NCBI GenBank assembly: GCA_026018925.1
Contig: JAKSZU010000009.1
Location: forward strand, 80,877,090 to 80,941,089
Reading direction: 5' to 3'
DNA: 64,000 nt
Source of the DNA: Tupaia tana
Lineage: Eukaryota > Chordata > Mammalia > Scandentia > Tupaiidae
The notes beneath the pieces were generated by a model. That model made no database searches. It was given only the letters and a program-made list of their open reading frames with translations, and had not been told where the DNA came from. This document shows, piece after piece, positions 33,401 to 36,400 of the stretch (position 1 is its first letter; the number at the start of each line of letters is the position of its first letter). The translations under genes were made by a program, and so were the position numbers.

Positions 33401-36400
33401 GGAACAGGACTCAAACAACGGTTGACTACATGAGAGTCCAGTGACATAACCATGACACTATCTGCTTTTCCCCCCAGCATGATTTTCTCTCTCTCTCTCT
33501 TTTTTTTTTTTTTGGAGAGGTTTTTGCTATAGAGCGCATGCGCTCACCAGAAAGACACAGAGAGACAGAAAGTGAGAAATCAGCCCCTGGAGAGATGGCC
33601 ACGTTGCAATCTCTTCTCCTCCATTCTCCTCTCGGGATCTTGGGCACGCATGCACACACGCCTGGTGTGAGTTTAAGCCACTGGGTCCAGGACTCGAACC
33701 GCAGTTGACTACATGACTACATGGGAGTTCAGCGACATAGCCATTACGCTAACTGCTGGTCCCCACCTAGCATGATTTTCTTTTTTTTTTTTTTTTTTTT
33801 TTTTTAACTTTAGCATTTTATTATTGACTGGCTGAACTGGAACTCATTTTGCCTTTTTTTTTAATTTTTTTTTTTATTTTTTTTTATTATCTATTTTTTT
33901 ATTACATTGAATTACATATAACTTTACAGTGTATTACATTGCTTTTTCAAAAGGGAATGCCATGCATGTCAGTCAGTACAGAGACATTAATCTCCCCGCT
34001 TCAACATTCAATATCTTTCCTGTTTCCCCCAATCATTATTATTATTATTCTAATTATTTTTTATGATAAACATGATTTTTTTTTTCCAATTATCAGATCA
34101 TAAAGTTCCCAACAATAGGAAACGTAGACTGCACTCAGGGCTGGACCAAGGGTGGGTCTTGTGCAGCCCCGCAAATGTAGGTGAATCTCCATGGAACACA
34201 GTTTCAGGAACGCGGCTCAGGAAAGCAGAGACGGCCATCAACGGTTGCGGCACGCGGGGCAGATCCCGGCCACGGCCCGCGGGGCAGAGCCCCGGCCACG
34301 GCCCGCGGGGGCAGACCCCGGCCACGGCACGCGGGGCAGAGCCCTGGCCACGGCACGCGGGGCAAACCCCGGCCACGGCACGCGGGGCAGAGCCCCGGTC
34401 GGGCCGGACCTCCGGATAGGGCATGTGGAGCAGAGCCCCGGCCACAGCACGCGGGGCAGACCCCGGCCACGGCACGCGGGGCAGGCCCCGGCCACGGCAC
34501 GCGGGGCAGAGCCCCGGTTAGGCCGGACCTCGGATAGGGCATGTGGAGCAGAGCCCCGGCCACGGCATGCAGGGCAGACCCCGGCCACGGCACGCGGGGG
34601 CAGGGCCCCGGCCACGGCACACGGGGCAGACCCCGGCCACGGCACGCGGGGCAGGGCCCTGGCCACAGCACGCGGGGCAGGGCCCCGGCCACGGCACGCG
34701 GGGGCAGAACCCGGCCTCGGCACGCGGGGGCAGACTCCGGCCACGGCACGCGGGGCAGACCCCGGCCACGGCACGCGGGGCAGGGCCCCGGCCACGGCAC
34801 GCGGGGCAGAGTCCCGGCCACGGCACGCGGGGCAGGCCCCGGCCACGGCACGCGGGGCAGGCCCCGGCCACGGCACGCGGGGCAGAGCCCCGGTTGGGCC
34901 GGACCTCGGATAGGGCATGTGGAGCAGAGCCCCGGCCACGGCACGCAGGGCAGACCCCGGCCACGGCACGCGGGGGCAGGGCCCCGGCCACGGCACGCGG
35001 GGCAGACCCCAGCCACGGCACGCGGGGCAGGGCCCGGGCCACGGCACGCGGGGCAGGGCCCGGGCCACGGCACGCGGGGCAGGGCCCCGGCCACGGCACG
35101 CGGGGCAGGCCCCGGCCACGGCACGCGGGGCAGAGTCCCGGCCACGGCACGCGGGGCAGACCCCGGCCACGGCACGCGGGGGCAGACCCCGGCCACGGCA
35201 CACGGGGCAGAACCCCAGCCACGGCACGCGGGGGCAGAACCCCGGCCACGGCACGCGGGGCAGAGTCCCGGCCACGGCACGCGGGGGCAGACCCCGGCCA
35301 CGGCACACGGGGCAGAACCCCGGCCACGGCACGCGGGGCAGAGTCCCGGCCACGGCACGTTGGGCAGAACCCCGGCCACGGCACGCGGGGCAGAGTCCCG
35401 GCCACAGCACGCGGGGGCAGACCCCGGCCATGGCACACGGGGCAGACCCCGGCCACGGCCCATGGGACAGGGCCCCGGCCACGGCACGTGGGGCAGGCCC
35501 CGGCCACGGCACGCGGAGCAGAGTCCTGGCCATGGCACGCGGGGCAGAACCCGGCCACGGCACGCGTGGGCAGACCCCAGCCATGGCACGCGGGGGCAGA
35601 ACCCGGCCACGGCACGTGGGGCAGACCCCGGCCACGGCACGCAGGGCAGAGCCCGGCCATGGCACGCGGGGCAGAGCCCCGGTCGGGCCGGACCTCCGGA
35701 TAGGGCATGCGGAGCAGAGCCCCGGCCACGGCACGCGGGGCAGACCCTGGCCACGGCACGTGGGAGAGGGCCCCGGCCTAGCATGATTTTCAAGCTGCTG
35801 GACTTGGGACTCAAACCACAGTCGGACATGTGGGAATCCAGCGCCTTAACCATCATGCCACTTGCTAGCCCCTTATTTTAAAGTTTGCTTTAGGGCATGT
35901 ATTTTTTTTTCTTTTTTTGGAAAGAGACAGAGAGTGAGAGGGGAAGCTTGACAGCATCCTGATAGGGGATGGCCACACCACAATCCCTTCTCCTCTAGTC
36001 TCCTCTTGGAATTTTGGGAATGCACACAAGTCTGGTTTATTTTTCAAGCCACCAGGTTCAGGACTCAAACCACAAAGTTGGCCACGTGAGATCCAGCTGC
36101 CTTAACCTCCATGTCACCTACTGGCCCCAAACTACAAACTTTTACTCTGTGAAAGACTTTGTTCAGAGAACAGATAAACTCTAGAGTAGGAGAAAGTATT
36201 TTCAAAATACCTATTGGATAAAAGATTAGTTGCTAGAGGGATCAGCAGTTTGCAATAATAGCTATGTCGCTGGACTCCCATGTAGTTGACCACAGCTCAA
36301 GTCCCGGAGCCGGTGGCTTAAACTCAGGCCAGGCGCATGTGTGTGTGTGCGCCCAAGATCCCAAGAGGAGAATGGAGGAGAAGGGATTGCTGCATGGCAA

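Follow-up and report, generated by a model that had tools for sequence, protein, structure and literature searches.

Is the GC-rich tandem repeat at the centre of this Tupaia tana locus a solitary insertion, or does it belong to a family of retrotransposons built like SVA and LAVA? According to PMC4432496, VNTR composites are specific to hominoid primates, and SVA2, their ancestor, was studied in rhesus as well. In 2015 its authors knew of no non-LTR retrotransposons other than VNTR composites with complex internal tandem repeats. Conserved end arrays are described there for both SVA and LAVA, and the dominant SVA2 units are given as 40 and 39 bp. No VNTR composite outside primates is described in the titles and abstract openings of the open-licence PubMed Central papers that our searches listed.

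The window analysed here is a stretch of 64,000 nucleotides. An earlier note, made from its sequence, had proposed a VNTR-bearing non-autonomous element at this locus, with a one-off processed transcript as the alternative. Our main reading, to which we assign a probability of about 0.93, is that the locus holds a member of a young family of non-autonomous composite non-LTR retrotransposons with an L1-VNTR-L1 layout, presumably mobilised by L1 machinery acting in trans.

The window copy is inserted in an older SINE

The copy lies on the minus strand of the window at 33781-35776, reads from 35776 to 33781 and is an L1-style insertion within an older SINE. It is flanked by the target-site duplication CCTAGCATGATTTTC. 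The left copy (33766-33780) is a stretch of the host SINE and is matched exactly by the right copy (35777-35791), in agreement with the 15-bp duplication that the earlier note had described. The GC-rich tandem array of about 1.5 kb and the poly(A) tail, also described there, are present as well. The tail comprises 25 nt (33781-33805, minus strand, appearing as T on the plus strand; TRF). The array occupies 34241-35776 on the minus strand, has a GC content of 81% and ends at its 5' side at the truncation point of the copy. The window copy is thus one 5'-truncated member of the family, truncated inside the array, and its missing 5' domain is uninformative about the family.

The window array consists of 52 pieces, of which 47 are 25-27 bp long, four are 68/69 bp and one is a 38-bp end piece. 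Its observed/expected CpG ratio is 0.80, compared with 0.36 in 6 kb of flank. The G-quadruplex score of the sense strand (-0.19) and the motif count are not notable.

The sequence CCTAGCATGATTTTC occurs 13 times in the window with at most 2 mismatches, while 0.19 occurrences are expected. This excess is explained by the origin of the sequence from within the SINE that is abundant in the window. Once the insertion is removed and its outer flanks are connected, the top alignment with a different SINE of the window crosses the join without a gap there, which favours an insertion. A further SINE alignment of the joined flanks has a 2-nt gap a few bases before the join.

In the region 33040-35875, a single old SINE appears to have been targeted three times at one position: two of the insertions are SINEs and the third is the VNTR element. 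The left part of the host SINE (33045-33218, minus strand, outer limit approximate) has its own imperfect target copy at 33204-33218. It is followed by two nested SINEs at the same target site, at 33219-33472 and 33488-33765 (both minus strand, limits approximate), and the right part of the host continues at 35792-35875 (minus strand, outer limit approximate). Four copies of the target thus start at 33204 (2 mismatches), 33473 (1 mismatch), 33766 and 35777. By eye, the abundant SINE of the window appears tRNA-derived; we take it to be reminiscent of the CYN elements of colugos.

The element belongs to a young, dispersed family

We searched the assembly of the same genome (2.948 Gb in 1198 contigs). 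A 56-mer spanning the junction between array and 3' domain is found at 1004 places (465 + 539) with at most 3 mismatches, while the reversed-pattern control gives 0; every place among the matches listed has 0 mismatches. A DNA search with the 3' domain returned 1450 first-look candidates, 40 of which were scored, and 40/40 match at E <= 1.7e-188. Of the 39 further copies that were scored, the best 20 (L009-L028) were read over about 8 kb each. The array is joined to the 3' domain in all 20 and contains 2 to 86 units. In each of sixteen further copies, the 3' domain is followed by an A-rich stretch and then by a different flank.

Target duplications of 10-21 bp are present in 16 of 21 copies, the window copy included. 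As a control for chance matches, flanks of other copies were used; for each copy, the mean of the longest match in these controls lies between 6.2 and 7.8, and its peak between 7 and 11. Every control is shorter than 14 of the 16 duplications, namely those of at least 13 bp. The remaining two lie above the maxima of their own controls, 9 for L016 (10 bp) and 7 for L022 (11 bp), yet do not surpass 11, the highest value of any control. A T lies directly 5' of the duplication in 13/16 cases, and the duplications start A-rich; several begin with As that possibly belong in part to the tail. Flank matching found no duplication in five of the 21 copies (L010, L014, L017, L019, L023). Among these five, L017 is the only one so explained, by an inverted 5' piece.

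The proposal of a VNTR-bearing non-autonomous family is therefore borne out by the 1004 junctions and by the joined array and 3' domain in 20/20 copies. The check suggested at the time was to look for dispersed copies that share the junction and carry their own duplication and poly(A); this is the pattern found, with duplications in 16/21.

Divergence of the 3' domain from the majority sequence is 0-1.2% (mean 0.44%) in the 21 copies and 0-1.5% (mean 0.52%) in the 16 further copies, which come from the 0-mismatch junction matches; both samples were picked for similarity and lean young, so the youth of the family may be overstated. At the mammalian neutral rate assumed here, the family would be a few million years old or less.

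Long copies carry an L1-type 5' domain

An L1-type 5' domain is found upstream of the array in 9/20 copies (L009, L012, L013, L015, L016, L017, L018, L024 and L025). From 5' to 3', these long copies contain an L1-type 5'UTR made up of 113-bp monomers, in differing numbers, and unique sequence, a broken 5' part of ORF1 (about 165 codons), a GC-rich linker and the array, which continues into the mosaic 3' domain and the poly(A). The element in L009 is 4466 bp long. The layout is that of a VNTR composite, with a 5' domain (in 9/20), a central GC-rich VNTR, a separate 3' domain and poly(A). The SVA/LAVA-like plan suggested in the earlier note thus holds, and is amended by the L1-type 5'UTR and the 5' part of ORF1 that the longer copies add.

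In L012, L016 and L025 a near-palindromic GC stretch around a central CTAG lies between the 5'UTR and ORF1. In other copies this stretch is reduced or changed, and may be liable to deletion.

Across the 21 copies, the arrays comprise 817 units, including 758 of 25-27 bp and 16 of 68/69 bp. The first unit is identical in 6/9 long copies and the last in 11/21 copies. The ends of the array are conserved, and its interior and length vary between copies. A coding minisatellite was considered and ruled out, as unit lengths of 25 and 26 bp do not make whole numbers of codons. Two translations from the array/3' domain gave no protein homologue, either among 533 candidates (E <= 1) or among 8000 (E <= 1e-5), which is weak evidence given the repetitive queries, and pattern scans of viral_contigs and genome_contigs gave no match.

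The ORF1 part of the composite is 76-87% identical to eight ORF1 loci (L041-L048), with divergence beginning at the GC linker. These loci were picked by similarity to the old ORF1 copy of the window itself, which is L041. Pieces of the 5'UTR are 69-78% identical to some of them. In the adjoining ~1.5 kb on the downstream side, none of the eight matches the ORF2 endonuclease, and no ORF2 C-terminal match was found in five regions farther downstream of ORF1 loci. A 45-aa ORF2 match in L042 (3311-3445, E 1.4e-14) counts against a HAL1 assignment of the loci; it may be a separate fragment. Judged from sequence, L042-L048 probably represent a HAL1-type, ORF1-only family. Given the similarity-based choice of loci, a full L1 of this ORF1 lineage may exist.

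The composite resembles HAL1 in having an L1 5'UTR and ORF1 without ORF2, its ORF1 part being 76-87% identical to loci without an adjacent ORF2 endonuclease. According to PMC5753468, HAL1 encodes ORF1p, whereas the composite keeps only about 165 ORF1 codons with a fixed stop and then enters the VNTR. ORF1 is not complete in any of the nine long copies: it is cut after about 165 codons, and the stop at codon 76 is common to 9/9. Among the 150 matches scored in the search for the ORF1 loci, many contain an in-frame TAG.

The 3' domain is a mosaic with an L1 end

The earlier note had described 450 bases of unrelated 3' sequence between array and tail. A 3' domain does exist at this position, but its stretch from about 34063 to 33872 is an L1 3' end, and a further 48 nt lie outside the family. 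On the minus strand, the array is followed by a proximal part of about 112 nt (34129-34240), which matches only within the family among the sequences compared. The next 53 nt (34076-34128) are 79% identical to the start of L074, a locus that contains L1 remnants. The distal part (33872-34063) corresponds to the last ~190 nt of the domain and is 90-94% identical to the L1 3' end in three loci (L071, L073, L074). On the same strand, 33854-33905 is the family's A-rich 3' tail, where the remaining scored copies terminate.

A 57-mer from the 3' domain occurs at 7006 places (3548 + 3458; control 0), seven times the junction count. We read four of these loci outside the listed 0-mismatch junctions. 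L072 is a composite; L071, L073 and L074 are L1 3' ends, two of which (L071 and L074) are preceded by matches to the C-terminal part of ORF2. The ORF1 loci L041-L048 have no match to the 3' domain. In L012, a second 3'-domain piece of 168 nt (4884-5051, 96%) lies near the composite copy and is possibly another L1 3' end.

For the ORF2 of resident L1s, 150 matches were scored of 97369 candidates, many with an open frame of 1288 aa. In a protein search with the ORF2 fragment of the window, nearly all of at least 120 rows are at 53-63% identity and one listed row reaches 81%, with 77% of the query covered. Only three of the listed rows carry a name, and these are rabbit, mouse lemur and Phocoena sinus. 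We considered the open-ORF2 L1 as a source of the 3' domain and of the array, and rejected both. Only A-rich tails align to its 3'UTR in seven loci, the window's own apart, and its 5'UTR monomers differ from the array in two loci. The 5' part of the element aligns to the open-ORF2 L1 in two loci over only 215 bp of ORF1, at 75-76%. Two open-ORF2 loci, L037 and L038, have their own distinct tandem monomers in the 5'UTR.

The window copy carries 48 additional nucleotides

The 48 nt at 33806-33853 (minus strand) are private to the window copy among the scored copies, and an AATAAA lies shortly before the tail. In the 39 other scored copies, the match starts at query position 36-66, and in 23/39 at 54-56 (33853-33855), which places the 3' end of the family at the A-rich tract from about 33854. 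These 39 copies lack most or all of the 48 nt. Searched with at most 3 mismatches, the 48 nt are found at exactly two places in the genome, each time without a mismatch: the window and C353:21650043-21650090 (control 0). No composite element lies beside the second site. The 48 nt could represent a 3' transduction from a source insertion that is absent from the assembly, being polymorphic or lost. Since no element is present at the second site, a switch of the reverse transcriptase to another polyadenylated RNA as template is equally open. It is possible, given the empty site by the second copy of the 48 nt, that source insertions still segregate and that the family is active now.

A U6 snRNA adjoins the L1 3' end in L073 (412-518 in locus coordinates, minus strand; Rfam U6). 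This junction looks like a chimeric retrocopy formed by template switching, and points to template switches in the Tupaia tana genome. Two family members have 82 nt (L015) and 64 nt (L020) between the matched 3' domain and the duplication; the stretch in L020 is largely A-rich.

Mechanism and alternative explanations

Dispersal, poly(A), target duplications, 5' truncation and one 5' inversion (L017) are the hallmarks observed in the family. In the mechanism that we propose, transcription would start from the L1-type 5'UTR, the array would help to make the element RNA a good L1 substrate, and the resident L1 machinery would reverse-transcribe this RNA in trans. The open-ORF2 L1, a candidate mover, differs from the composite in its 3'UTR and, in two loci, in its 5'UTR.

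Taken by itself, the window, with a single copy bearing poly(A) and a target duplication, would fit a one-off processed transcript from a minisatellite-bearing gene. The 1004 genomic junctions and the like structure in 20/20 copies exclude this for practical purposes, and the 25- and 26-bp units, not being multiples of three, also speak against a gene transcript. We give equally little credence to satellite spread or segmental duplication in place of retrotransposition. Tandem arrays can spread through recombination, but poly(A), target duplications, truncation points and the inversion are typical of target-primed reverse transcription; the copies read share no flanks, and each of the 16 extra copies enters a different one.

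An internally deleted, HAL1-like L1 with later expansion of a minisatellite, instead of an element assembled from several sources, is a possibility to be taken seriously, though we lean against it. Both ends of the element are L1-derived, the 5'UTR and ORF1 part on one side and the last ~190 nt on the other, and the genome contains ORF1 loci that lack a match to the ORF2 endonuclease over about 1.5 kb of downstream sequence (0/8 match). Against such a deletion, the sequences compared contain no other match to the first ~112 nt of the 3' domain, and the 5' part and the 3' end match two separate sets of loci, L041-L048 having no 3'-domain match. Descent from the primate SVA/LAVA clade, with loss of the Alu-like and SINE-R parts, is very improbable in our view. 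The common layout with a GC-rich central VNTR and poly(A), and the conserved end units around a variable interior described in PMC4432496, would suit it. In conflict with this descent are the units of 25-27 bp, compared by length only with the 40/39 bp that dominate in ancestral SVA2 according to the same paper, the 5' part composed of L1 5'UTR and ORF1, and the tRNA-derived appearance of the abundant window SINE.

Comparison with primate VNTR composites

By the published descriptions (PMC4432496 and PMC5753468), SVA and SVA2 share with the Tupaia tana composite a central GC-rich VNTR, poly(A), a partly borrowed 3' domain, and conserved end units around a variable interior. They differ in their 3' end, which comes from an L1 here whereas SVA has the HERV-K-derived SINE-R, and in unit length, which is 39-40 bp and longer as opposed to 25-27 bp, lengths alone being compared. 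The 5' domain of an L1 5'UTR and part of ORF1 also sets the Tupaia tana composite apart. L1 trans-mobilisation has been shown for SVA, according to the same sources, whereas we infer it for the Tupaia tana composite. LAVA is similar in being a VNTR composite with an L1-derived piece in its 3' part (U1-AluSz-U2-L1ME; PMC4432496). The gibbon elements LAVA, PVA and FVA have, by description, an Alu-like 5' region in common with SVA, in contrast to the L1 5'UTR/ORF1 of the Tupaia tana composite. Judged by the published descriptions, no part of the latter was recognised as derived from SVA or LAVA.

The differing parts and unit length fit an origin independent of SVA/LAVA. We consider the chances about even that the family represents a second, independent origin of VNTR composites outside the primate SVA clade, in which L1 pieces were assembled around a 25-bp minisatellite under the same internal rules of fixed end units and a freely varying interior. 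A young family that is made from other parts and numbers about a thousand copies or more would be an independent natural replicate of SVA/LAVA. The features common to both systems would then point to a role of the VNTR, while the Alu-like region, SINE-R and hexamers, which are not shared, would not be required. If the two systems did converge, the property that makes such RNAs good L1 cargo would lie in the GC-rich array and not in the Alu or SINE-R parts. The family also illustrates how a new non-autonomous element can arise from L1 ends and a minisatellite.

Other features of the window

A U1 snRNA copy (Rfam) is located at 15971-16134 on the minus strand. A ribosomal protein S10/S20e-type copy (Pfam PF00338), probably a retrocopy, lies at 60667-61119. 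The minus-strand ORF at 53070-53414 has no Pfam match; its start resembles exon 1 of MAGT1. Together with the L1 and SINE content, these two features are in keeping with a placental mammal. If the ORF is this exon, the VNTR element is located in an intron of MAGT1, in sense orientation.
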